64,000 nt of DNA from Actinoplanes sp. SE50/110 (GTDB taxonomy: Bacteria; Actinomycetota; Actinomycetes; Mycobacteriales; Micromonosporaceae), in the NCBI RefSeq assembly GCF_900119315.1, contig NZ_LT827010.1, positions 346,001 to 410,000 of the forward strand, given 5' to 3'. Below, one piece after another: positions 6,373 through 56,377 of this stretch. Position numbers and translations under genes: made by a program. The notes under the pieces were generated by a model. That model worked only from the letters and a program-made list of their open reading frames with translations, was not told the DNA's origin and made no database searches. How positions within the stretch are numbered: the stretch's first letter is position 1; each line of letters opens with the position of its first letter.

Positions 6373-6988
6373 CGACCCGCCGGGCCAGTCCCGGATAGTC
6401 GGTGACGAAACCGTCGTCGTCGACGGTCAGGTCGGCGCTGAACGTCTCGCTCGCGAACCGGATCCGGCCCTCGCCCAGCGGCGTGTAGATCTGGTCCGCC
6501 TGCACCACTTCCAGGCTGGGCACGAGCACCCACGCGACACTCAGCCGGTGGGAGACGCTTTCCCCGCTGAGCAGGCCCAGCCGGCGGATCGGCAGCGTGT
6601 TGGTCAGCGGGGAACCACCCAGGTCGGCGTCGAACGCGCCGTACAGCAGATCCGGGTCCTCGATCCCGGGCAGACCGGCCCGGGCGTGCCCGGCGGCCAG
6701 CAGCGCCGCATCCAGATCGCCCTGCTCGGAGGTGGTCACCCGCCACCGCCCGGCGGCCAGCTCCAGACGCACCCCGCGGGCCCAGCCGGCACCCTCGGCG
6801 CGCACATCCAGCCGCGCGGTCGCCCAGCCCGGATCGGTCTGGATCTCGTAGTGGCACGCGTAACCGATCGGCGCCGCGGCCAGCGCGGTGCCCTGCGCAT
6901 ACAACCCGTTCCGGGCGTCGAGGCGCACATGCTCGCTACCGGGGACATCCCGGCGTTCCCAGAACAACCCTGTGGAAAGAACGCCCAT
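6347..6988 (-). CDS. Putative glycolipid-binding family protein
   Basis: 213 residues, cytoplasmic, with no signal peptide or membrane segment. The layout (N-terminal RLDARNGLYAQG region, repeated beta-strand segments, ending with DDDGFVTDYPGL) matches the actinobacterial 'putative glycolipid-binding' family. That name comes from a mycobacterial structure, and the true ligand is not established. The start at 6988 has only a weak ribosome binding site. It converges on the peptidase gene and is separated from the helicase gene by the terminator at 7063-7086. Confidence 0.72.
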   Translation of the reverse strand: MGVLSTGLFWERRDVPGSEHVRLDARNGLYAQGTALAAAPIGYACHYEIQTDPGWATARLDVRAEGAGWARGVRLELAAGRWRVTTSEQGDLDAALLAAGHARAGLPGIEDPDLLYGAFDADLGGSPLTNTLPIRRLGLLSGESVSHRLSVAWVLVPSLEVVQADQIYTPLGEGRIRFASETFSADLTVDDDGFVTDYPGLARRVVTPARGSS

Positions 6989-7062
6989 ACCGGCAAGTTA
7001 CCCGGCATTCGAAACGATTGCGGTGGTACGCGTGAGCCAGCCCTGTGGATGACCCTGTGGAA

Positions 7063-36210: not shown

Positions 36211-36340
36211 GGTGGGCACGCATCCGGCGGTGAAAACGGCGGTGGGCACGCAAGCAGCCGCTTAAGCGGCGGTGGGCACGCATGCGGCGATGAAAGCGGC
36301 GGTGGGCACGCATGCGGCGATGAAAGCGGCGGTGGATGGG
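36211..36340. repeat. Four and a partial 30-bp tandem repeats
   Basis: GGTGGGCACG starts at 36211, 36241, 36271 and 36301, with a decayed copy at 36331. The third and fourth units are identical; the first two diverge. In one frame they would read [10 protein letters not shown], but no supported gene contains them. Confidence 0.9.
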
Positions 36341-36418
36341 CTCGGGCGCTGTGGGCGGCGGGGGCAGGCTGTCGGCCCGCGTGGGGTGGGTGGCGGAGAG
36401 AGTGGCAGAGTGGGCCGG

Positions 36419-37114
36419 GTGACGCGCGCAGACCTGGACAAGCAGCCGCACGAGGTCGCCGAGATGTTCGACGGCGTGGCCAAACGGTATGACCTCACCA
36501 ACACCGTGCTCTCCTTCGGGCAGGACCGGGGCTGGCGCCGGGCCACCCGGGCGGCCCTCGGGCTGCGGCCGGGTGAGCGGGTGCTGGACGTGGGCGCCGG
36601 CACCGGGATCTCCACCGACGAGCTGGGGCGGTCCGGGGCGTTCGCGGTGGGTGCCGACCTGTCGGTGGGGATGCTGCAGGCCGGGCGGGCGGTGCGGCCG
36701 GTGGTGCCGCTGCTGGCCGGGGATGCGCTGAAGCTGCCGTTCGCCGATGCCACCTTCGACGCGGTGACGATCTCCTTCGCGTTACGCAACGTGGTGGACA
36801 CCGGTGCTGCGTTGCGTGAGTTCGGCCGGGTGACGCGGCCGGGCGGGCGGCTGGTGGTGTGCGAGTTCAGCACCCCGACGAATCCGGCATTCCGGACGGT
36901 TTACATGCAGTATCTGATGCGGTCGCTGCCGGTCGTCGCGCGCGGGGTGTCCAGCAACCCCGACGCCTATGTCTATCTGGCCGAGTCGATCCGGGCCTGG
37001 CCCGACCAGGCGGGGTTGGCGACGCGGATCGCCGAGGCGGGACCGTGGGATCGCGTGGGCTGGCGGAATCTCACCGGCGGGGTCGTGGCGCTGCACCGGG
37101 CGATTCGGCGCTGA
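36419..37114 (+). CDS. menG: Demethylmenaquinone methyltransferase MenG
   Basis: 231 residues from GTG 36419, which aligns with the start of mycobacterial MenG (MSRAALDK-type N-terminus). GTG 36410 has better spacing from GGAGAG and would add three residues. The SAM-binding motif [12 protein letters not shown] lies near 57-68 and the UbiE/MenG signatures [12 protein letters not shown] and [10 protein letters not shown] are present. It methylates the ring in the final common step of menaquinone synthesis. Confidence 0.95.
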
Positions 37115-37358
37115 CCCACGCCGTACCGCCGATTCGCCGGACCGGGGGAAAGCGGCGCGTGACGCGCCGAACGGGCCGCAAGGTGGGGCGCGCCGCGGGG
37201 CGAAGTGGGACCCGGAGGTGGGTCGCGGCCGCGGGATGGTGGCAGCCGCGTGGTGCGAACGCAGCGCGCGCTGCGGCGGAAATGATCATCCCGCGCGTGT
37301 CGGTGACAAATCGGGCGTTTCGCGTACACGGTCCGTATCCACTGTTTAGCTCGATGTC

Positions 37359-37619
37359 ATGACGAAACTAGGGCAGCTAGAGGACACCGACATCGACATC
37401 GCGATCGACGAGGGCGAGGCCGGCGAGCGCCGGGCCAGCGAGCTCGCGAACCGCATCCGGATGGTCGCCGCCCAGGATCCGCTGTTGGCGCAAGACCTGG
37501 TAGAGGAATTGATCGTCGCTCTGGACCGGGCGATGGACGGCACCATTCGAGATCATCTCGAGGGTCCGGCACGTGGGATCGCGGAGCGCGTTTTGGGTGA
37601 TTCTGACCCGATCCAGTGA
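37359..37619 (+). CDS. Small acidic hypothetical protein
   Basis: 86 residues, strongly acidic at the N-terminus (TDIDIAIDEGEAGE), then amphipathic helices. It has no cysteines, signal or membrane segment. Third-position GC is high but lower than in neighbours, and there is no clear ribosome binding site. It lies between menG and the menJ-like gene. Antisense frames overlap it; I favour the plus frame because of the helical, charged composition. Unrecognised. Confidence 0.5.
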   Translation: MTKLGQLEDTDIDIAIDEGEAGERRASELANRIRMVAAQDPLLAQDLVEELIVALDRAMDGTIRDHLEGPARGIAERVLGDSDPIQ

Positions 37620-37693
37620 GCTCGCCACAACAATCAGGTCGACCTGGGTGTAAAGATCGTCGATAGTCGGCCTAGACTCCGACCGAGGCATGC

Positions 37694-37711
37694 TTGTGAA
37701 CTAATTCACGA
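37694..37711. promoter_or_regulatory. Rex (redox repressor) operator upstream of menJ-nuoA-N
   Basis: TTGTGAACTAATTCACGA matches the Rex operator consensus TTGTGAA-N4-TTCACAA at 13 of 14 fixed positions. It lies 25 bp before the menJ start and 16 bp after a TAGACT -10-like element (37673-37678), so a bound repressor would block initiation. In Streptomyces coelicolor Rex controls the nuo operon. NADH releases Rex. Confidence 0.85.
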
Positions 37712-37735
37712 GCACTGCGGATCGGAGGCTGCACC

Positions 37736-39022
37736 GTGAACGAACCCCTGCCCGTCGCCGGCGAAGCCGACGTGATCGTGGTCGGTGCGGGTCCCGGTGG
37801 CAGCGCGGCGGCTTACCACCTGGCCCGGCACGGGCACCGGGTGCTGCTGCTGGAGAAGACCGAGTTCCCGCGCGAGAAGGTGTGTGGCGACGGGCTGACC
37901 CCGCGCGCCGTCCGCCAGCTGGTCCGGATGGGCATCGACACCTCGGAGAAGGCGGGCTGGCTGCAGAATCGCGGCCTGCGGGTGATCGGCGGCGGGGTCC
38001 GGCTGGAGCTGGACTGGCCCGAGCTGGCCAGTTTCCCCAGTTACGGCCTGGTCCGCACCCGTCTGGACTTCGACGACATGCTGGCCGAGCGCGCGGTGGA
38101 AGCCGGCGCGCTGCTGCGCACGAACGTGAACGTCGGTGGTCCGGTCCTCAATGACGAAGGTTACGTGATCGGCGTCCAGGCCAAGGTCGGTCCGGAGAAA
38201 GAGCCGGTGCAGTTCCGCGCTCCCCTGGTGATCGCCGCGGACGGCGTCTCCGGCAAGTTTCCGCTGGCCATGGGCCTGGCCAAGCGCGACGACCGCCCGC
38301 TGGGGGTGGCTGTCCGGCGCTACTACCGCTCCGCGGTCAAGGCCGACGACAACTACCTGGAGTCCTGGCTGGAGCTGCGCAGCGCGCAGGATCCGAGCCG
38401 GCTGCTCCCCGGTTACGGCTGGATCTTCGGCCTGGGTGACGGCCGGGTCAACGCCGGCCTGGGCATCCTCAACTCGTCGAGCGCCTTCGGCAGGACCAAC
38501 TACAAGAACATGCTCACCGACTGGCTCGGCTCCACTCCCCAGGAGTGGGGGCTGCGCGGCGAGGAGAACGCAGAGGGCCCGACGCTGGGCGCCGCGCTCC
38601 CGATGGGCTTCAACCGGGTGCCGCATTACACCCGCGGGGTACTGCTCGTCGGCGATTCGGGTGGCATGGTCAACCCGATGAACGGCGAGGGCATCGCGTA
38701 CGCGATGGAGTCCGGCGAGCTGGCCGCCGAGGTGGCCGCGCAGGCGTTGGCCCGTCCGGCCGGTCCGGAGCGCGAGCGCGCCCTGCGCGCCTACCCGACC
38801 GAGTTGAGCCTGCGCTTCGGCGGTTACTACCGGCTCGGCGGTGTGTTCGTGAAGCTCATCGGGAATCCGCAGGTCATGCGGCTGGCCACGAAGCACGGCA
38901 TGCCGCACCCGACGTTGATGAGGTTCGTTCTCAAGCTCCTGGCGAATCTGACCGATCCGCGCGGTGGCGACGCCATGGACCGCATCATCAACGGCTTGAC
39001 GAAGGTGGCGCCCGCCGTCTGA
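37736..39022 (+). CDS. menJ: Geranylgeranyl-reductase-family flavoprotein (MenJ-like)
   Basis: 428 residues from GTG 37736, with GGAGG 7 nt upstream. The FAD-binding motif VIVVGAGPGGSAAAYHLAR is at 12-30, followed by EFPREKVCGDGL. GDSGGMVNPMNGEGI (about 304-318) is the second FAD contact. In Mycobacterium the homologue MenJ saturates one isoprene unit of menaquinone, and it too lies near menG and a polyprenyl synthase. An archaeal-lipid-type role is unlikely here. nuoA begins 82 nt downstream with no terminator between. Confidence 0.88.
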   Translation: MNEPLPVAGEADVIVVGAGPGGSAAAYHLARHGHRVLLLEKTEFPREKVCGDGLTPRAVRQLVRMGIDTSEKAGWLQNRGLRVIGGGVRLELDWPELASFPSYGLVRTRLDFDDMLAERAVEAGALLRTNVNVGGPVLNDEGYVIGVQAKVGPEKEPVQFRAPLVIAADGVSGKFPLAMGLAKRDDRPLGVAVRRYYRSAVKADDNYLESWLELRSAQDPSRLLPGYGWIFGLGDGRVNAGLGILNSSSAFGRTNYKNMLTDWLGSTPQEWGLRGEENAEGPTLGAALPMGFNRVPHYTRGVLLVGDSGGMVNPMNGEGIAYAMESGELAAEVAAQALARPAGPERERALRAYPTELSLRFGGYYRLGGVFVKLIGNPQVMRLATKHGMPHPTLMRFVLKLLANLTDPRGGDAMDRIINGLTKVAPAV

Positions 39023-39104
39023 CGACGGAATCGGGCACCCCGACCAGAGGGATACAAAAGCGAAAAACTAGTGTGAAGCGGCTAACAGTCGTACGGGAGT
39101 GAAG

Positions 39105-39470
39105 ATGACGATCAACCCATACGTCCCGATCGTCGGGTTGCTGATCCTCGGCGCGCTCTTCGCGTTGTTCTCGGTGTCTGTGGCACCGATCGTCGGGCCG
39201 AAGCGCTACAACCGGGCAAAAATGGACGCCTACGAGTGCGGCATCGAGCCGGCCCCACAACCGGTCGGCGGCGGCCGATTCCCGGTGAAGTTCTATCTGA
39301 CGGCGATGCTCTTCATCGTCTTCGACATCGAGACCATCTTCCTGTACCCGTGGGCCGTCTCGTTCGAGGCGCTGGGCCTGTTCGGATTCGTGGAAATGGT
39401 CCTGTTCATCGTCACCGTGTTCATCGCCTACACGTACGTGTGGCGACGCGGCGGCCTCAACTGGGACTGA
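39105..39470 (+). CDS. nuoA: NADH-quinone oxidoreductase subunit A
   Basis: 121 residues from ATG 39105 (GGGAG 5 nt upstream); GTG 39099 is less well placed. Three membrane helices, with the conserved loop [10 protein letters not shown] and [16 protein letters not shown] after it. It is part of the membrane arm of complex I near the quinone site. First gene of a complete 14-gene operon; nuoB follows after 5 nt. Confidence 0.97.

Positions 39471-43296: not shown

Positions 43297-43300
<4 letters not shown>
42182..43300 (+). CDS. nuoE: NADH-quinone oxidoreductase subunit E with long C-terminal extension
   Basis: 372 residues. The 24-kDa domain (about 1-190) binds a [2Fe-2S] cluster through C108, C113, C149 and C153. 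Residues about 225-372 are an Ala/Pro/Gly/Glu-rich extension absent from E. coli NuoE (166 residues) and probably disordered. It overlaps nuoF by 4 nt. The extension keeps the reading frame and base composition of a translated region. Confidence 0.95.
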
Positions 43301-44612
<1,312 letters not shown>

Positions 44613-44613
<1 letters not shown>

Positions 44614-47108
44614 TGACCGACGTAGCCAAGAGAGCCGACACCGTCAAGCTGACCATCGACGGCGTCGAGGTGGTCGCCGAGAAGGGCGAGCTGCTGATCC
44701 GGGTCGCCGAGCGGATGGGCATCGCGATCCCGCGGTTCTGCGATCACCCGCTGCTGGCCCCGGCCGGCGCCTGCCGCCAGTGCCTGGTCGAGGTGGAGGG
44801 CCAGCGCAAGCCGATCGCCTCGTGCACCCAGACGGTGGCCGACGGCATGGTGGTCAAGACCCAGCTCAGCTCGCCGGTCGCGGCCAAGGCCCAGGCCGGC
44901 GTGATGGAGCTGCTGCTGATCAACCACCCGCTCGACTGCCCCACCTGCGACAAGGGTGGCGAGTGCCCGCTGCAGAACCAGGCGATGAGCACCGGCCGCG
45001 CCGACTCCCGGTTCCACGAGCACAAGCGGGAGTACGAGAAGCCGATCCACATCTCCAGCCAGGTCCTGCTGGACCGGGAACGCTGCGTGCTCTGCCAGCG
45101 CTGCACCCGGTTCTCCGAGGAGATCGCCGGCGACAAGTTCATCGACCTGATGGACCGCTCCTCCGGCGAGCAGATCAACGTGTACCGCGACGACTTCTTC
45201 GGTGGCGCGGGTACCGGTGACGGCCAGGTCGGCGAGGGGGCGGGGGACGTCGCGTTCAACTCCTACTTCTCCGGCAACACCATCCAGATCTGCCCGGTGG
45301 GCGCGCTGACCGGCGAGCAGTACCGGTTCCGTGCCCGGCCGTTCGACCTGGTCTCCTCGCCCACCGCGTGCGAGCACTGCGCGGCCGGCTGCTCGATGCG
45401 GGCCGACCACCGGCGCGGGAAGGTGCTGCGCCGGCTGGCCGGTGACGACCCGGCGGTCAACGAGGAGTGGAACTGCGACAAGGGTCGGTGGGGATTCCGT
45501 TACGCCACGGCCACCGACCGGATCACCACGCCGCTGATCCGGGACGCGCGCACCGGGCAGCTGCGCGAGGCGTCCTGGAGCGAGGCGCTGGTCACCGCCG
45601 CCGAGGGGCTCAAGGCGGCCCGTGAGCGGGGTGTCGGGGTGCTGACCGGGGGCCGGCTCACGGTGGAGGACGCGTACGCGTACGCGAAATTCGCCCGGAT
45701 CGTCCTGGGTACCAACGACATCGACTTCCGGGCCCGGCCGGTGCGAGCCTCCGGCTCGCCGGCCGAGATCACCGAGGAGGCGGACTTCCTCGCGGCCGCG
45801 GTCGCCGGGGTTTCCGATCTGTCGTACGCCGATGTCGAAGCCGCCCCGAGCATCCTGATCGTCGGGCTGGAGCCGGAGGAGGAGTGCCCGATCCTCTTCC
45901 TGCGCCTGCGCAAGGCGTCCCGCAGGCAGTTGCGGGTGACCGCGGTGGCCCCGCACCTGACCCGGGGTTTCGAGAAGCTCGGCGCCACGCTCGTCGCGGC
46001 GGTCCCGGGTGACGAGGCCCGGCTGCTGAACACCGATCCCACGGTGGCCGCGGCGCTCAGCGCGCCGGGCAGCCTGCTGCTGGTCGGTGAGCGTCTGGCC
46101 ACCGTGCCGGGCGGGCTCTCGGCGGCCGCTGCGCTGGCCGCCCGAACCGGCGCCCGCCTCGCGTGGGTGCCGCGCCGGGCCGGTGACCGGGGTGCGGTGG
46201 ACGCCGGCTGCCTGCCGAACCTGCTGCCCGGCGGCCGCCCGGTCGGGGACACGTCGTCCCGGGCCGAGCTCTCCCTCTCCTGGTCGGTGGACGCCGGTGT
46301 GCTGCCGTCCCGGCCCGGCCGGGACGTCGACGCGATCATCGCGGCGGCGGCCGACGGGACGCTCGGCGGCCTGCTGGTCGGCGCGGTGGACCCGGGCGAC
46401 CTGACCGACCCGGCCCTCGCCGAGCGGGCGCTGGACGCGGTGCCGTTCCTGGTCAGCCTGGAGCTGCGGCACAGCGCGGTGACCGCGCGGGCCGACGTGG
46501 TGCTGCCGGTCGCGCCGGCGGTGGAGAAGTCCGGCACCTACATGGACTGGGAGGGCCGGCTACGGTCCTTCGGCACGGTCCTGCGCGGCAGCACGGCGAT
46601 GACCGACGGCCGGGTGCTGGAGGCCATCGCCGCCCTGCTCGACGTCACCCTGAACACCGGGGACGTGCAGGCGGTCCGCCGCGAGCTGGGCGCGATGCCG
46701 GCCGGTCAGGCCCGTCCCGCGCTGCCGTCGGTGGCCGCCGAGGCGGTCGCCGACCCCGGTGAGCGGTCCGCGGTGCTGGCCACCTGGCACCAGCTGATCG
46801 ACCTGGGCACGCTGCTGGACGGCGACGACGTGCTGGCCGGCACCGCCCGGCCGCCGGTCGTGCGGCTCGGCAAGGAGCTGGCCGAGCAGCTGCGTGTCGC
46901 GGACGGCGACCTGCTCACGGTACGCACCGACCGCGGCTCGGTGACCCTGCCCGCCGCGATCGCCGACCTGCCCCGGCAGGTGGTCTGGCTGCCGACCAAC
47001 TCGCCGGGTTCCACGGTGCGCCGCAGTCTGGGTGTCACCGCCGGCGCGGTGGTCCGGCTGTCGGCCGGCCTGCCCGGCCCGATTCTCGCCGAGGGAGTTG
47101 ACCGATGA
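44613..47108 (+). CDS. nuoG: NADH-quinone oxidoreductase subunit G
   Basis: 831 residues from ATG 44613. The N-terminal ferredoxin-like [2Fe-2S] domain has [15 protein letters not shown]. His/Cys-rich cluster sites [17 protein letters not shown] and CVLCQRC follow, then a 4-Cys site beginning CEHCAAGC. The rest is a molybdopterin-oxidoreductase-like domain without a visible cofactor-binding motif, as in other NuoG proteins. It overlaps nuoH by 4 nt. Confidence 0.96.
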
Positions 47109-48472
47109 TCGAGCTCCTCGCGGCCCACGCGACGGACCCGGCCCCCGAGTCGTTCGGGCAGGACGTCTGGTGGATCGCGCTGATCAAACTGGTCGGCCTG
47201 TTCGCCCTGCTGCTGATCCTGACCCTGTTCACGATCAACTACGAGCGCAAGGTCGTGGCCCGGATGGCTGTCCGGCCCGGCCCCAACCAGGTCGGTTTCC
47301 GCGGCTATCTGACCTCCCTGAGCGACGGCCTGAAGCTGCCGTTCAAGGAGGAGATCATCCCCAGGACCGCCGACAAGGTGGTCTACTTCATCGCCCCGGT
47401 GATCTCGGCGACCACGGCGTTCACCGCGTTCTCGGTGATCCCGTTCGGCGGCGTGGTGACCATGTTCGGGCACCGGACCGCGCTGCAGCTCACCGACGTG
47501 CCGGTCTCGGTGCTGGTGCTGCTGGCCTGCTCGTCGATGAGCGTGTACGGCGTGGTGCTGGCCGGCTGGGCCTCCGGATCGACGTACCCCCTGCTGGGTG
47601 GTCTGCGATCAAGCGCGCAGATGATCTCGTACGAGGTCGCGATGGGTCTGTCCATCGTCGCGGTGTTCATGACCGCGGGCACGATGAGCACCTCACAGAT
47701 CGTCGCGGCGCAGGCCTCGGGTCAGCCGGTCGTCCTGTTCGGCTGGCACGTCACCGCGCCCGGCTGGTACTGCGTGCTGCTGCTGCCGAGCTTCCTGGTC
47801 TACATGATCTCGGCGGTCGGCGAGACCAACCGGGCGCCGTTCGACCTGCCCGAGGCCGAGTCCGAGCTGGTCGGCGGGTTCCACACGGAATACTCGTCGT
47901 TCAAGTTCGCGCTGTTCTTCCTGGCCGAGTACATCAACATGATCACCGTCTCGGCGTTCTGCACCACGCTGTTCCTGGGCGGCTGGCGGGCGCCGTGGCC
48001 GATCACCGCGGTCTGGCACGGGGCGAACTCCGGCTACTGGGCGCTGCTCTGGTTCTTCCTGAAGGTGTTCACGCTGCTGTTCGGCTTCATCTGGCTGCGG
48101 GCCACGCTGCCCCGGATGCGCTACGACCAGTTCATGCGGTTCGGCTGGAAGGTCCTGATCCCGGTCAACCTGGTGTGGATCCTCGCGCTGGCGTTCTGGA
48201 AGGTCATCCGGCACGGCCTGATCTCCGACACGGTCAAGTTCAGCACCGTCGGCGTGCTGGTCGTGATCATCCTGGTGGCCGCCTACGCCTGGCCGTCGGC
48301 GGAGAAACCCCGGCAGCTCTCCCTGGAGGAGGAACTGGCCCGCCGCCCACCGGGCAGCTTCCCGGTTCCGCCGATCGACCTGCAGGTTCCCCCGAGCCCG
48401 CGTGCCCGCCGCGCGGTCGCCGAACGCGCCCCCGCAGCCGTGGGCGGCGACTCCGAGTCGAAGGAGGTGTGA
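47105..48472 (+). CDS. nuoH: NADH-quinone oxidoreductase subunit H
   Basis: 455 residues, eight or more membrane helices. Family motifs: [19 protein letters not shown], and [20 protein letters not shown] on the cytoplasmic loop that forms the quinone entry. The C-terminal ~45 residues are a hydrophilic tail longer than in E. coli. One base separates it from nuoI, whose AAGGAGG lies inside the nuoH end. Confidence 0.97.
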
Positions 48473-48473
48473 G

Positions 48474-49034
48474 GTGAACACGTTTACCGGCTCCTTCAAG
48501 GGCTTCGGTGTCACGTTCGCGCACATGTTCCGCAAGGTGGTCACCACCGACTACCCGTTCACCCCACCGAAGCCGGCTCCGCGGTACCACGGCCGGCACA
48601 TCCTCAACCGGCATCCGGACGGGCTGGAGAAGTGCATCGGCTGCGAGCTGTGCGCCTGGGCCTGCCCGGCCGACGCGATCTACGTCGAGGGTGGCGACAA
48701 CACCGACGAGCAGCGGTTCTCGCCGGGTGAGCGGTTCGCGAAGATCTACCAGATCAACTACACCCGGTGCATCTTCTGCGGGCTCTGCATCGAGGCCTGT
48801 CCGACCCGTTCGCTGACCATGAGCAACGAGTACGAGCTGGCCCGGGACAGCCGCCAGGACCTGATCTTCACCAAGGAACAACTCCTGGCCCCGCTGCTGC
48901 CCGGGATGGAGCAGCCGCCGCACCCGATGCGCCTGGGCGAGACCGACAAGGACTACTACGTCGGTGCGCTGACCAACCCGGGCACCTCGGCCGGTGCCGA
49001 GAAGGCCCCGCTCCACCGGGGGGACGAGCAATGA
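48474..49034 (+). CDS. nuoI: NADH-quinone oxidoreductase subunit I
   Basis: 186 residues from GTG 48474 with a perfect AAGGAGG 6 nt upstream. Two 4Fe-4S ferredoxin motifs, [16 protein letters not shown] (about 45-60) and [16 protein letters not shown] (about 97-112), hold clusters N6a and N6b linking the NADH arm to NuoB. It overlaps nuoJ by 4 nt. Confidence 0.97.
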
Positions 49035-49774
49035 CACACGTCTCCACCGGGGAACAGATCGCCTTCTGGATCCTCGGCCCGCTGGCCGTGCTCGGGGCGC
49101 TCGGCATGGTGCTGGCCCGCAACGCGGTCCACTCGGCGCTGTGCCTGGTCGTCACGATGCTGAACCTCGGCATCCTGTACGTGGTCAACCAGGCCCCGTT
49201 CCTGGGCTTCGTGCAGATCATCGTCTACACCGGCGCGATCATGATGCTGTTCCTGTTCGTGCTGATGCTGGTCGGCCGGGACGCCTCGGACTCGCTGATC
49301 GAGACCCTGCGCGGGCAGCGCGTCGCCGCCATCCTGCTCGGCCTGGGCTTCGCCCTGCTGGTCGGCACCGGGCTGGGCCGGGCGCTGAACCACACCCCGA
49401 CCGTGGGTCTGGACCAGGCCAACCAGAAGGGGAACGTGCAGGGCCTGGCCGCGCTGCTGTTCACCAGGTACGTGTTCGCCTTCGAGGTCACCTCGGCGCT
49501 GCTGATCACGGCGGCGGTCGGGGCGATGATCCTGGCCCACGTCGAGGTGGCCAAGGGCGACAAGGCCGACCAGGTGACCCGGATGAAGGAGCGCTTCCGG
49601 CCGGGCAACTACCCCGGGCCCAAGCCGGGCCCCGGCGTCTACGCGAACACCATGTCGGTGGCCGCGCCGGCCCGCCTGCCGGACGGCAACGGCACGGAGA
49701 ACAGCATCTCGCCGATCCTGCCGGTCCGGGAGCTGACGGCTTCCGAGGTCGCCCCGAAGGGAACCGAGAAATGA
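49031..49774 (+). CDS. nuoJ: NADH-quinone oxidoreductase subunit J
   Basis: 247 residues. Five membrane helices, with [20 protein letters not shown] (about 58-77), the conserved helix-3 pi-bulge region. The C-terminal ~70 residues are Pro/Gly-rich and hydrophilic, an extension typical of actinobacterial NuoJ. It overlaps nuoK by 4 nt. Confidence 0.96.
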
Positions 49775-50070
49775 CGCCCGACTACTACCTGATCCTGGCG
49801 GTCATCCTGTTCACCGTCGGGGCCGCCGGCGTGCTGGTGCGGCGCAACGCGATCGTCCTGTTCATGTGCATCGAGCTGATGCTGAACGCGGCGAACCTGG
49901 CGCTGGTCACCTTCAGCCGGATCAACGGCGGGCTGGACGGTCAGATCATCTCGTTCTTCGTGATGGTCGTCGCCGCCGCCGAGGTCGTGGTCGGCCTCGC
50001 CATCATCATGTCGATCTTCCGTACGCGACGCTCGGCGAGTGTCGACGACGCGAACCTCCTGAAGTACTGA
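49771..50070 (+). CDS. nuoK: NADH-quinone oxidoreductase subunit K
   Basis: 99 residues, three membrane helices. [14 protein letters not shown] contains the membrane Glu used in proton transfer, and [14 protein letters not shown] is the second conserved helix with Glu. Related to MrpC. An 11-nt gap with AAGGGG leads to nuoL. Confidence 0.97.
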
Positions 50071-50081
50071 AGGGGTCTGTC

Positions 50082-51989
50082 GTGGAACACACCTACGCCC
50101 CCGCGACGGGCGTGCTGAGCGGGATCTGGCTGCTCGTGGCCATCCCGCTGGTCAGCTCGGCGATCCTGCTGCTGCTCGGTCGACGCGCCGACCGGTGGGG
50201 ACACTGGCTCGGCGTACTCGCGGTCGCCGCGTCCTTCGTACTCGGCCTGATCTTCTTCATCAAGCTCGGCGGACTCGCCGCCGAGCAGCGGTCCGCGGAG
50301 CTCAGCCTCTTCGACTTCATCGACGTCGGGAGCCTGAAGGTCGACTTCGGTCTGCTCTTCGACCCGCTGGCCGGCGTGTTCGTGCTGCTGATCACCGGGG
50401 TCGGATCGCTGATCCACCTGTACGCGGTCGGCTACATGGAGCACGACCCGGGTCGGCGCCGCTTCTTCGGCTACTTCAACCTGTTCGTCGCGGCGATGCT
50501 GCTGCTCGTCCTCGGCAACAACTACGTGATGCTCTACTTCGGCTGGGAGGGTGTCGGTGTGGCGTCCTACCTGCTGATCTCCTTCTGGTACACGCGCCCG
50601 TCGGCGGCCACCGCCGGCAAGAAGGCGTTCCTGATGAACCGGGTCGGTGACGCCGGCCTGGCGATCGGCGTGTTCCTGATGTTCACCACGGTGGGCGGCA
50701 CGCAGTACTCCACGGTGTTCGGCAGAATCGGCTCGCTGGGGTCGACGACCGTACTCATCATGGGTCTGCTCCTGCTCCTCGGCGCCTGCGGCAAGTCCGG
50801 CCAGTTCCCGCTGCAGGCCTGGCTGCCGGACGCGATGGAGGGCCCGACCCCGGTGTCGGCCCTGATCCACGCGGCCACCATGGTCACCGCGGGCGTCTAC
50901 CTGATCGCCCGGTCCAATCCGATCTTCTCGGCCAACGACACGCTGCAGCTGGTGGTGGTCAGCGTGGGTGCGCTGACGCTGCTGATCGGCTGCATCATCG
51001 GCACCGCCAAGGACGACATCAAGCGGGTGCTGGCCTGGTCGACGGTCAGCCAGATCGGCTACATGTTCCTCGGCGTCGGGCTCGGCGGGGCGGCGTACGC
51101 GCTGGCCATCATCCACCTGCTGGCGCACGGCTTCTTCAAGGCGAACATGTTCCTCGGGGCCGGGTCGGTCATGCACGGCATGCACGACCAGGTCGACATC
51201 CGGCGGTTCGGCGGCCTCAGCAAATACATGAAGACCACCTGGCTCACCTTCATGATGGGCTGGCTGGCGATCATCGGCATCCCGCCGCTGTCCGGCTTCT
51301 TCACCAAGGAGCCGATCATCGCGGCGGCGTTCGACCGCCCCGGCTGGACCGGCTGGCTGTTCGGTGGCGCGGCGATGCTCGGCGCGGGCCTGACCGCCTT
51401 CTACATGACCCGGCTGTTCGTGCTCACCTTCCACGGACCGCAGCGCTACACCGAGGAGAACACGCACCCGCACGAGTCGCCGGCGATCATGACGATCCCG
51501 CTGATCCTGCTGGCGCTCGGTTCGGTGGTGGCCGGCTGGGTGATGTCGACGACCGTGGTCGACTGGCTCAACCCGGTCTTCGGCGAGCAGCCCGAGCACA
51601 CCGAGAAGCTGTGGATCACGCTGCTCAGCATCCTGCTGACGCTGATCGGCGCCGGCCTGGCCTGGGCCCGGTTCCGCCGCGGCACCGAGCCGGCACCGGA
51701 ACCGGCGGGGGTGGTGGTCACCGCGGCCCGACGCAACCTGTACACCGACGCGTTCAACGAGGCGGTGTTCGAACGGCCCGGCATCTACCTCACCCGGGCG
51801 CTGGTCTACCTGGACGGCAGGGGCATCGACGGCCTGGTCAACGGGCTGGCGGCGGCGGTGGGCGGCGGCTCCGGCCGGCTCCGGCGGCTGCAGACCGGCT
51901 TCGTCCGCTCGTACGCCCTGTCCATGCTCACCGGCGCCATGCTCCTGGTGGGCGCCTTCCTCGCGATCCAGTTGGGGTGGCTGGCGTGA
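50082..51989 (+). CDS. nuoL: NADH-quinone oxidoreductase subunit L
   Basis: 635 residues from GTG 50082. Antiporter-like subunit of about 16 helices with MLYFGWEGVGVASYLLISFW (pump Glu), GKSGQFPLQAWLPDAMEGPTP and the long C-terminal lateral helix. It is a proton pump module at the far end of the membrane arm. It overlaps nuoM by 4 nt. Confidence 0.97.
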   Translation: MEHTYAPATGVLSGIWLLVAIPLVSSAILLLLGRRADRWGHWLGVLAVAASFVLGLIFFIKLGGLAAEQRSAELSLFDFIDVGSLKVDFGLLFDPLAGVFVLLITGVGSLIHLYAVGYMEHDPGRRRFFGYFNLFVAAMLLLVLGNNYVMLYFGWEGVGVASYLLISFWYTRPSAATAGKKAFLMNRVGDAGLAIGVFLMFTTVGGTQYSTVFGRIGSLGSTTVLIMGLLLLLGACGKSGQFPLQAWLPDAMEGPTPVSALIHAATMVTAGVYLIARSNPIFSANDTLQLVVVSVGALTLLIGCIIGTAKDDIKRVLAWSTVSQIGYMFLGVGLGGAAYALAIIHLLAHGFFKANMFLGAGSVMHGMHDQVDIRRFGGLSKYMKTTWLTFMMGWLAIIGIPPLSGFFTKEPIIAAAFDRPGWTGWLFGGAAMLGAGLTAFYMTRLFVLTFHGPQRYTEENTHPHESPAIMTIPLILLALGSVVAGWVMSTTVVDWLNPVFGEQPEHTEKLWITLLSILLTLIGAGLAWARFRRGTEPAPEPAGVVVTAARRNLYTDAFNEAVFERPGIYLTRALVYLDGRGIDGLVNGLAAAVGGGSGRLRRLQTGFVRSYALSMLTGAMLLVGAFLAIQLGWLA

Positions 51990-53527: not shown

Positions 53528-55047
53528 AACTCCCACCGATCGACTACGGCGCACTGGCCCCCATGCTGATCCTCTTCGGGGTCGCCTGCCTCGGGGTGCT
53601 CCTCGAAGTGCTGGTGCCGCGGCGGTCCCGCAACGTCGTGCAGCTGTCGCTGGCCCTGCTGGGTGTCGCGGCGGCGCTGACCGTCCTGGTCATCCACCGC
53701 AACGACCGGCTCGTCACGATCGGCGGCGCGGTCGCGATCGACGGGCCGACCGTCTTCCTGCAGGGCGCGATCCTGTTGCTCGGCGCGGTCTCGCTGTTCC
53801 TGATCGGCGAGCGGTCGGTCGAGGCCGGCGGTGCGTTCGTGGCCCAGGCGGCGGTCGTGGTCGGCTCCGATAAGGACAGCCGGCAGTCGGCCGGGCAGCC
53901 CGGGCTCACCGAGGTGTACCCGCTGGCCACCTTCGCGCTCGGCGGCATGCTGCTGTTCGTCGCCGCGAACGACCTGCTCACCATGTTCGTGGCACTGGAG
54001 GTCTTCTCGCTGCCGCTGTACCTGCTGTGCGCGCTGGCCCGCCGCCGGCGCCTGCTCAGCCAGGAGGCCGCCCTCAAGTACTTCCTGCTCGGGTCGTACG
54101 CCTCGGCGTTCTTCCTGTTCGGTGTCGCGCTACTGTACGGCTTCGCCGGCGGCGTCCAGCTCAGCGTCATCCACCAGGCGGTGGTCAGCCCGCAGCGGGA
54201 CCAGCTGCTCCTCTACGGCGGTCTCGGACTGGTCGCGATCGGCCTGCTCTTCAAGAGCGCGCTGGCCCCGTTCCACGTCTGGACCCCGGACGTCTACCAG
54301 GGCGCTCCGACCCCGGTCACCGCGTTCATGGCGGCCTGCACCAAGGTGGCCGCGTTCGGGGCCCTGCTCCGGGTGTTCTACGTGGCCTTCGAGGGCGTCC
54401 GCTGGGACTTCCAGCCGGTCCTCGGGGCGGTCGCGGTGCTCACCATGTTCATCGGCGCGATCCTGGCGGTCACCCAGACCGACATGAAGCGGCTGCTGGC
54501 CTACTCGTCGATCGCCAACGCCGGCTACCTGATGGTCGGCGTCCTGGCGCTCAACGAGGACGGGCTGAGCAGCACGATGTTCTACCTGGTGGCCTACGGC
54601 TTCTCGGTGATCGCCGCGTTCGCGATCGTCAGCCTGGTCCGGGACGCCGACGGCGAGGCCACCCACCTGTCCCGGTGGGCCGGCATCGGCCGCAAGAGTC
54701 CGCTGCTGGCCGGCGTCTTCACCCTGGTCCTGCTCGCCTTCGCCGGCATCCCGCTGACCAGTGGCTTCACCGCCAAGTTCGCGGTCTTCGCGGCGGCCAC
54801 CGCGGGCGGGCAGACCTGGCTGGTCATCTTCGGCGTGATCAGCAGCATGCTGATCGCCTTCCCGTACGTCCGGGTGATCGTGCTGATGTGGCAGTCCGAG
54901 CCGAGCGAGAACACCCCGTCGGTCTCCATCCCGGGCTTCCTCACCTCGGCCGCACTGGGCCTCGGGGTGCTGGTCACCGTGGCGCTCGGCGTGGTGCCGG
55001 GGGCGCTGATCGACCTGACGCGGGATGCCGCCCAGTTTGTTCGCTGA
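53524..55047 (+). CDS. nuoN: NADH-quinone oxidoreductase subunit N
   Basis: 507 residues. Antiporter-like subunit with MFVALEVFSLPLYLLC (pump Glu), FKSALAPFHVWTPDVYQGAP and KRLLAYSSIANAGY. Third proton pump module and last gene of the operon; a long hairpin follows 12 nt after the stop. Confidence 0.97.
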   Translation: MKLPPIDYGALAPMLILFGVACLGVLLEVLVPRRSRNVVQLSLALLGVAAALTVLVIHRNDRLVTIGGAVAIDGPTVFLQGAILLLGAVSLFLIGERSVEAGGAFVAQAAVVVGSDKDSRQSAGQPGLTEVYPLATFALGGMLLFVAANDLLTMFVALEVFSLPLYLLCALARRRRLLSQEAALKYFLLGSYASAFFLFGVALLYGFAGGVQLSVIHQAVVSPQRDQLLLYGGLGLVAIGLLFKSALAPFHVWTPDVYQGAPTPVTAFMAACTKVAAFGALLRVFYVAFEGVRWDFQPVLGAVAVLTMFIGAILAVTQTDMKRLLAYSSIANAGYLMVGVLALNEDGLSSTMFYLVAYGFSVIAAFAIVSLVRDADGEATHLSRWAGIGRKSPLLAGVFTLVLLAFAGIPLTSGFTAKFAVFAAATAGGQTWLVIFGVISSMLIAFPYVRVIVLMWQSEPSENTPSVSIPGFLTSAALGLGVLVTVALGVVPGALIDLTRDAAQFVR

Positions 55048-55360
55048 CCGTTCCCGCCCCGCGGCCCCGGTGCACCAGCACCGGGGCCGCGGTCGTTCGG
55101 CGATGCGGTCCTTTCAGGATCGCCGCCGTGAGTATTCCGGCGCGGTGATCGACGTCGGCCGCACCCGCGGCGGATCCGGAGCGGCCGAGAATGTCAGGTC
55201 ATCACCCGCCACCATCCGGAACGCCGGAACCTGGCCCGCCCATCCATTTCGTGGGACGCCTACCGGGCGATCCGGGCAAATCTCAACCGCACTCATTCCT
55301 GATCTTGTGGCACGCACCCCTGGGACGGAAACCGGTGGGCCGGTATGGCATCGTGGGACC
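55048..55360. other. Intergenic region between nuoN and the polyprenyl synthase gene
   Basis: Holds the nuo terminator, then ~220 nt without a gene, ending in a TATGGC -10-like element at 55344-55349. That places a transcription start within a few bases of the GTG at 55361, so a leaderless mRNA is possible. Confidence 0.5.
55059..55092 (+). terminator. Long hairpin terminating nuoA-N
   Basis: A perfect 15-bp stem (55059-55073 with 55078-55092) closed by ACCA, core GCGGCCCCGGTGC. It has no real U tract, as is common in high-GC actinobacteria. Confidence 0.8.
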
Positions 55361-56377
55361 GTGGTGAGCACCGGTGAGCTGACGCTGTCGTCGCTGGGCC
55401 TCGACGTCGATCCCGCGATGGACGCGTCGGTGTCGGCGATGCTGACCGCCGTCGAGGAAGCGCTGCGGGTCCGCGTCGCCAGCGCCGACCCCCTGGTGAC
55501 CGAGGCGGCCCGCCACCTCGCCGACGCCGGCGGCAAACGACTCCGCCCGATCCTCGTCGCGCTCGGCGCCCAATTCGGCGACCCGGCCCGCCCCGAGCTG
55601 ATCGACGCGGCCAACGTGGTCGAGCTGACCCACCTGGCCACGCTGTACCACGACGACGTGATGGACGAGGCCCCGGTCCGCCGCGGCACCCCCAGCGCCA
55701 ACGCGCGCTGGGGCAACTCGGTCGCCATCCTGGTCGGCGACTACCTGTTCGCCCAGGCCGCCGAGCTGGCCGCCAAACTCGGCACCGAGGCCGTCCACCT
55801 GCAGGCGCAGACCTTCTCCCGGCTGGTGCACGGGCAGATCGCCGAAACCGTGGGCCCGCGGGGCACCGACCCGATTCAGCACTATCTGCAGGTCATCGCC
55901 GACAAGACCGGGTCGCTGATCGCCACTGCGGCGCGCTTCGGCGGGCTGTTCTCCGGGGCGCGGCCCGAGCTGGTCGAGGCGCTCGCCGGGTACGGGGAGC
56001 TGATCGGGCTGGTCTTCCAGCTCTCCGATGACCTGCTGGACATCGCCTCCGAGTCGGTGCAGTCCGGGAAAACGCCGGGGACCGATCTGCGGGAAGGGGT
56101 GCCGACCCTGCCGGTGCTCTACGCGCTGGCGGGGGACGACGCGGATCCGGCTGCGGTGCGGCTGCGGGAGCTGCTCTCCGCGGGGCCGATCACCGATGAT
56201 GCGCTGCACGCTGAGGCGTTGGGGCTGCTGCGGGAGTCGGCGGCGATGAAGCAGGCGCGGGAGACGGTGCGGGGGTATGCGGAGGCGGCTCGCGAGCGGC
56301 TGGCGCCGCTGCCCGAGGGGGAGGCGAAGCGGGCGATGGAGCTGCTCTGCGACTACATGGCCGACCGCACCAACTGA
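55361..56377 (+). CDS. Polyprenyl (hepta/nonaprenyl) diphosphate synthase
   Basis: 338 residues from GTG 55361; GTG 55364 is equally possible and no ribosome site is seen. Trans-prenyltransferase motifs: GGKRLRPILVALGA (about 52-65), first Asp-rich motif YHDDVMDEAPVRRG (about 93-106) and second motif QLSDDLLDIAS (about 222-232). It chains isopentenyl units onto an allylic diphosphate to form the menaquinone side chain. Chain length cannot be read with confidence. It resembles mycobacterial GrcC1. Confidence 0.92.
   Translation: MVSTGELTLSSLGLDVDPAMDASVSAMLTAVEEALRVRVASADPLVTEAARHLADAGGKRLRPILVALGAQFGDPARPELIDAANVVELTHLATLYHDDVMDEAPVRRGTPSANARWGNSVAILVGDYLFAQAAELAAKLGTEAVHLQAQTFSRLVHGQIAETVGPRGTDPIQHYLQVIADKTGSLIATAARFGGLFSGARPELVEALAGYGELIGLVFQLSDDLLDIASESVQSGKTPGTDLREGVPTLPVLYALAGDDADPAAVRLRELLSAGPITDDALHAEALGLLRESAAMKQARETVRGYAEAARERLAPLPEGEAKRAMELLCDYMADRTN

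Follow-up and report, generated by a model that had tools for sequence, protein, structure and literature searches.

A candidate Rex operator before a geranylgeranyl reductase-family gene and the adjoining complex I operon of Actinoplanes sp. SE50/110, and its conservation in the actinobacterial phylum

The GGR-nuoA locus, its palindrome and its relatives

The window, that is the whole 64-kb stretch of DNA analysed here (346001-410000 of the single 9.24-Mb contig of Actinoplanes sp. SE50/110), carries a gene of the geranylgeranyl reductase (GGR) family that is followed on the same strand, after an 82-nt gap (39023-39104), by nuoA and the further genes of the complex I (nuo) operon, among which nuoA, nuoF, nuoH and nuoL were confirmed individually (Table 1). 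An 18-bp near-palindrome, TTGTGAACTAATTCACGA, ends 24 nt (37712-37735) before the GTG start of the GGR gene. A Rex operator (ROP) is taken here as an 18-bp palindrome that departs from TTGTGAANNNNTTCACAA at no more than about two positions, and direct sequence comparison found one mismatch between the site and this consensus. No other site in the window comes within three mismatches, against an expectation of 0.18 from shuffles, and just four Rex-like sites with two or fewer mismatches occur in the whole 9.24-Mb genome, as judged by pattern scans, which is all that the genome-wide searches for sites comprised. The reading of this DNA from its letters only (the sequence-only reading) had given the sequence and coordinates of the site exactly, had noted its one-base departure from the Rex consensus, and had put it about 25 bp before the GGR gene and nuoA 82 nt after that gene, all of which agrees with the comparison and the distances measured here.

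Table 1. Features of the GGR-nuo locus, in window coordinates
Feature	Position	Strand	Details
menG, demethylmenaquinone methyltransferase	36272..37114	+	NF001241 380.6 bits (cut-off 327); upstream of GGR
Degenerate iron-box-like palindrome TCAGGTCGACCTGG	37634..37647	.	Family consensus TTAGGN4CCTAA; centred about -44 from predicted start
-10-like element TAGACT of putative GGR promoter P1	37673..37678	+	15 nt before operator; predicted start about 37685
Predicted Rex operator (ROP) TTGTGAACTAATTCACGA	37694..37711	.	18-bp near-palindrome; one mismatch to TTGTGAANNNNTTCACAA
GGR-family gene ('menJ' of the sequence-only reading), candidate menaquinone side-chain reductase	37736..39022	+	428 aa; GTG start; GGAGG 37724-37728
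Second -10-like element TAGTGT, candidate internal nuoA promoter P2	39069..39074	+	With conserved CACCCC 39036-39041
Degenerate ROP-like sequence GTGTGAAGCGGCTAACAG	39071..39088	.	4 mismatches
nuoA, first gene of complex I operon	39105..39470	+	NF005922 208.9 bits (cut-off 155)
nuo operon span	43297..51989	+	nuoF 43297-44613, nuoH 47105-48472, nuoL within 49866-51989; NCBIfam above cut-off
Polyprenyl diphosphate synthase-like gene	55025..56377	+	NF042417 365.6 bits, below cut-off 600; after nuo genes

The GGR protein passes the geranylgeranyl reductase family model TIGR02032 (243.8 bits versus a cut-off of 158.8), but falls below the cut-off of the MenJ equivalog MkRedMenJ, NF045655 (230.4 versus 700 bits). 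Therefore, of the name menJ given by the sequence-only reading, the family and a plausible menaquinone role stand, while membership in the MenJ equivalog does not. The neighbourhood includes mqnC, menG and the polyprenyl diphosphate synthase-like gene, the last of which could serve quinone tail synthesis, and these neighbours make a menaquinone role likely for the GGR gene, a candidate menaquinone side-chain reductase. The mycobacterial menaquinone reductase MenJ belongs to the same FAD-dependent GGR superfamily and its proposed reaction is on the menaquinone tail; the window protein differs from it in reaching only 230 bits against the equivalog cut-off of 700, and in this comparison the sampled f2 genomes gave no match at E 1e-80. 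A second GGR-family gene lies elsewhere in the genome (467277), and a small ORF of 86 aa was seen on the + strand between menG and GGR (37359-37619).

The sequence-only reading had suggested an alignment of the region across Micromonosporaceae, and the operator proved to be kept in 80/80 other loci of this family, always at one mismatch. In the 496 kb of these 80 related loci, each locus has a single one-mismatch site, 80 in all, and no site with zero, two or three mismatches occurs; the two half-sites vary little or not at all, in contrast to the four central bases and the flanking sequence. Class-wide, 84/107 GGR genes of the Actinomycetes sample have an operator with 0-2 mismatches within 250 bp, and the best match at the other 23/107 has at least six mismatches, so that the counts are bimodal; coding-sequence control stretches of equal length never came below five mismatches to the Rex consensus. 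Where nuoA adjoins GGR, the operator (0-2 mismatches) precedes GGR in 83 of the 88 sampled Actinomycetes genomes. In the other classes of the phylum, it was found at 13/20 loci with 0-2 mismatches, six of them perfect, and the GGR proteins of the operator-bearing loci outside the class are only 45-55% identical. Such conservation in family, class and phylum lies far beyond chance, and the arrangement of operator, GGR and nuo is phylum-wide rather than special to this genome. It points to an old arrangement, with the predicted operator retained in most of the actinobacterial phylum sampled.

Putative promoters, the GGR-nuoA gap and the probable reach of the operator

Each of the 81 family loci has a single TA[GC]ACT element at a distance of 13-16 nt upstream of the operator, a motif present in 1/2384 background blocks, and in none of these loci does a TANNNT follow the operator. 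Across the class, such a -10-like element precedes 79/84 operators by 1-17 nt, in most cases by 10-17 nt (background 10/3941), and the Streptomyces-like locus L240 resembles them in carrying TAGGAT 15 nt before its operator. Since the conserved -10 precedes the operator, the latter would fall within the leader of the GGR transcript, at about +9 to +27; only -10-like hexamers place the start site and the two putative promoters, P1 and P2. The alternative that ROP serves as a -35 element was rejected at the GGR locus, because TA[GC]ACT precedes it and no TANNNT follows it in the whole family. The sequence-only reading had it overlapping the expected start of a promoter, and this placement gives way to one after the conserved TAGACT. 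In S. avermitilis, the Rex footprint at nuoA1 was mapped at -42 to -16, and the Rex operators of nuoA1 and atpI overlap the -35 while cydA1 and wblE have theirs past the start (PMC5355995). Therefore, both positions are known for Rex, although the predicted position of about +9 to +27 differs from that at S. avermitilis nuoA1.

GGR adjoins nuoA in 81/81 Micromonosporaceae loci, with a gap of 59-197 nt. A search of 37100-39200 revealed no U-tract terminator, in agreement with the earlier claim that none separates the two genes, and the window gap holds no strong stem, the best being 6 bp, so that transcription could plausibly read through from GGR into nuoA. A conserved terminator between the genes was likewise not found, stems of at least 11 bp occurring in just 8/81 loci; in some Micromonospora gaps, stems of 11-14 bp stand just past the GGR stop.

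The gap also holds the TAGTGT element, which recurs in 78/81 loci (background 1/2827) amid surroundings that vary. Class-wide, -10-like TAG[GA][AC]T elements occur in 40/78 gaps versus 7/940 coding blocks, and TAGTGT-like elements are found in the gaps of about 20 families. The best Rex-like matches in the gap have 4-8 mismatches in the 81 loci, and the idea of a further operator at nuoA in the window was rejected, given that GTGTGAAGCGGCTAACAG has four mismatches and is not conserved; this sequence is probably not an operator. Conservation of TAGTGT without a conserved operator makes a Rex-independent nuoA promoter likely. A conserved CACCCC was also observed about 27 nt before TAGTGT (39036-39074 in the window), a spacing unlike that of a usual -35, so that the candidate internal nuoA promoter may involve a further element.

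If nuo had such a promoter of its own, Rex could in practice control GGR only, with the two genes being mere neighbours. The gap hexamers in family and class, the lack of a conserved operator beside them, and the Micromonospora stems would all suit this reading; the window gap, with neither a U-tract terminator nor a stem above 6 bp, does not, and neither do the genomes in which GGR and nuo are apart. The f20 genomes are taken as Streptomyces because the operator published for S. avermitilis, TTGTGACCTGCTTCACAT, is present in them; here GGR and nuoA are at least 1.9 kb apart and the operator lies about 70-125 nt before nuoA. In L239 of genome G250, where GGR is 1.8 kb from nuoA, two tandem Rex operators (one and zero mismatches) precede nuoA (6978-7027), and no operator was found at GGR in the f20 genomes or G250. 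The operator thus stays with nuo, the quinone gene coming under it where it adjoins nuoA, and this makes control of GGR to the exclusion of nuo rather improbable. Conversely, nuo could be driven only from the operator-bearing GGR promoter, TAGTGT being no promoter at all. The constant adjacency, the gap of 59-197 nt and the missing terminator in the window would be expected under this arrangement, but a hexamer invariant in nearly all family gaps while its surroundings vary, and similar elements in the gaps of about 20 families, argue against it, and we regard it as unlikely. Taken together, the sequence comparisons suggest that control by Rex would probably be full for GGR and partial for nuo. 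The sequence-only reading had placed the whole nuo operon under the one operator; the adjacency and the lack of a terminator are in keeping with this, but the conserved P2-like TAGTGT without an operator leaves it unsupported in that form.

In these comparisons, the constant Rex target appears to be nuo, with quinone tailoring coupled to it through adjacency. The earlier proposal that the operator couples quinone tailoring to complex I would therefore hold for the genomes where GGR and nuoA are neighbours and be lost in Streptomyces and G250, while its premise that Rex control of nuo is established in Streptomyces is borne out by S. avermitilis, where nuo is a proven Rex target and the nuoA1-N1 operator was shown by EMSA, ChIP and DNase I footprint (PMC5355995). 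That system shares with the present locus the 18-bp motif, the regulator family and complex I as the target operon. It differs in that the operator stands directly before nuoA and not before a GGR gene adjoining nuoA, and in the Streptomyces-like loci GGR is separate, parted from nuoA by an opposite-strand NlpC/P60-like ORF (identified by eye). In some f18 genomes, e.g. L178 and L182, a second Rex-like site (2-4 mismatches) was observed in the GGR-nuoA gap in addition to a perfect one before GGR.

Identity of the regulator

Rex is an NADH-sensing repressor. A single clear rex gene is present in the genome (NF003995, E 8.7e-75), and its product resembles solved Rex structures (3ikv, E 2.9e-48) and contains the nucleotide-binding motif GVGNLGHA. 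This gene heads a rex-hemA-hemC-hemD cluster with its own operator upstream, the same gene order and operator placement as in the autoregulated rex-hemACD operon of Streptomyces, and the third strong Rex site of the genome precedes a WhiB-family gene. The proven Rex targets of S. avermitilis include rex-hem, wblE and nuo (PMC5355995). Three genomes without detectable rex (G006, G190 and G022) lack the operator as well: among genomes with GGR next to nuoA, the operator was found in 56/59 rex-positive and 0/3 rex-negative ones (Fisher p = 5e-4, uncorrected for phylogeny), a joint absence that rests on three genomes. The regions analysed from three rex-positive genomes in which GGR adjoins nuoA, G042, G023 and G058, hold no operator with up to three mismatches. 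From its sequence, its conservation, the resident rex gene with an operator of its own and the joint absence in three genomes, the 18-base palindrome is almost certainly a genuine Rex binding site.

Alternatively, the palindrome could serve a regulator other than Rex that recognizes a similar site, e.g. a protein of the CRP/FNR family, whose site is TGTGA-N6-TCACA. TTGTGAAN4TTCACAA indeed holds TGTGA-N8-TCACA-like half-sites, and the two-mismatch site at 2491656, which looks LacI-type (TGAAACGTTTCA), indicates that the pattern can be met by others. However, the spacing of the half-sites fits Rex and not CRP, genomes without rex are also without the site, the 18-mer is found at nuoA in Streptomyces-like genomes, and Rex footprints the same 18-mer at nuoA1 in S. 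avermitilis (PMC5355995), so that a different regulator appears very improbable. That the palindrome is a chance match is next to inconceivable: 17/100 window shuffles did yield one or more sites with up to three mismatches, but its invariance at the same place in all 80 relatives and its recurrence across the phylum already rule against it. The site at 2491656 (G000:C1:2491656; L003, L008) stands before an aldolase-like ORF; it reads by eye as LacI-type, was set aside, and is probably not a Rex target.

The proposed control, its meaning and an iron-box lead

Based on these findings, we propose, with good though not full confidence, that the palindrome is a genuine Rex operator through which GGR would be controlled fully and complex I partly, via P1 and P2. 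We infer Rex binding, repression, the NADH response, read-through, the activity of P2 and the substrate of the enzyme as parts of the following scheme. At a low NADH/NAD+ ratio, a Rex dimer would bind the operator at about +9 to +27 of P1 and block either the start of RNA polymerase or promoter clearance. When NADH is high, e.g. upon oxygen limitation, Rex would be released, GGR would be transcribed and its transcription would read through into nuoA-N, while P2 in the 82-nt gap, being operator-free, would probably give nuo a Rex-independent basal supply. GGR would share this control because it sits directly before nuoA, complex I being the conserved target.

As predicted here, both the kind of control and the operon are known ones, a quinone-related gene would come under the same control, and the locus would be a new member of the known Rex regulon. 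With the operator before a GGR gene adjoining nuoA across most of the phylum sampled, the usual actinobacterial layout would raise a quinone-tailoring enzyme alongside complex I when NADH accumulates; Streptomyces, with GGR split from nuo, is the notable exception. This raises the question whether menaquinone side-chain saturation tracks NADH/NAD+ through Rex. No earlier report of the operator-GGR-nuoA arrangement was found in a search that did not cover the 2012 study by Ravcheev, reportedly the main comparative study of Rex regulons, and priority is thus not established; an expression paper on Actinoplanes SE50/110 mentions neither nuo nor Rex. The ggr-nuo locus of Actinomyces oris is alike in having GGR beside nuoA and menG/ubiE nearby, and transposon hits in ggr and nuo came from the same screen with the same phenotype class, in a paper with no mention of Rex or an operator (PMC5478893).

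Upstream of P1, a second palindrome, TTAGGN4CCTAA, matches at eight or more of ten positions at a fixed place in 77/81 Micromonosporaceae loci (L009-L088 and the window), against a control maximum of 6/10, and the window copy scores just 7/10 at that place. The iron box of DtxR/IdeR is a 19-bp TTAGGTTAGSCTAACCTAA-like site, and the relatives hold only its TTAGGN4CCTAA part. The genome has one DtxR-family gene, and similar palindromes in it adjoin genes for aconitase, a siderophore-interacting protein and an FTR1 iron permease. At the corresponding place of the GGR promoter, the palindrome was not seen outside Micromonosporaceae. It is a doubtful, though conceivable, idea that in this family the GGR-nuo promoter integrates the NADH/NAD+ signal of Rex with a DtxR/IdeR-type iron signal from an activator position at about -44; if true, Fe-S-rich complex I and quinone saturation would be made only with both reducing power and iron at hand. 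Since the window box is degenerate, such dual-signal control may not hold in this strain, and given this copy and the absence of the palindrome outside the family, the iron box is offered as a lead only. A perfect GTTAGGTTTGCCTAAC palindrome was observed just upstream of the minus-strand aconitase gene (L251 about 1501, G000:C1:2026259).
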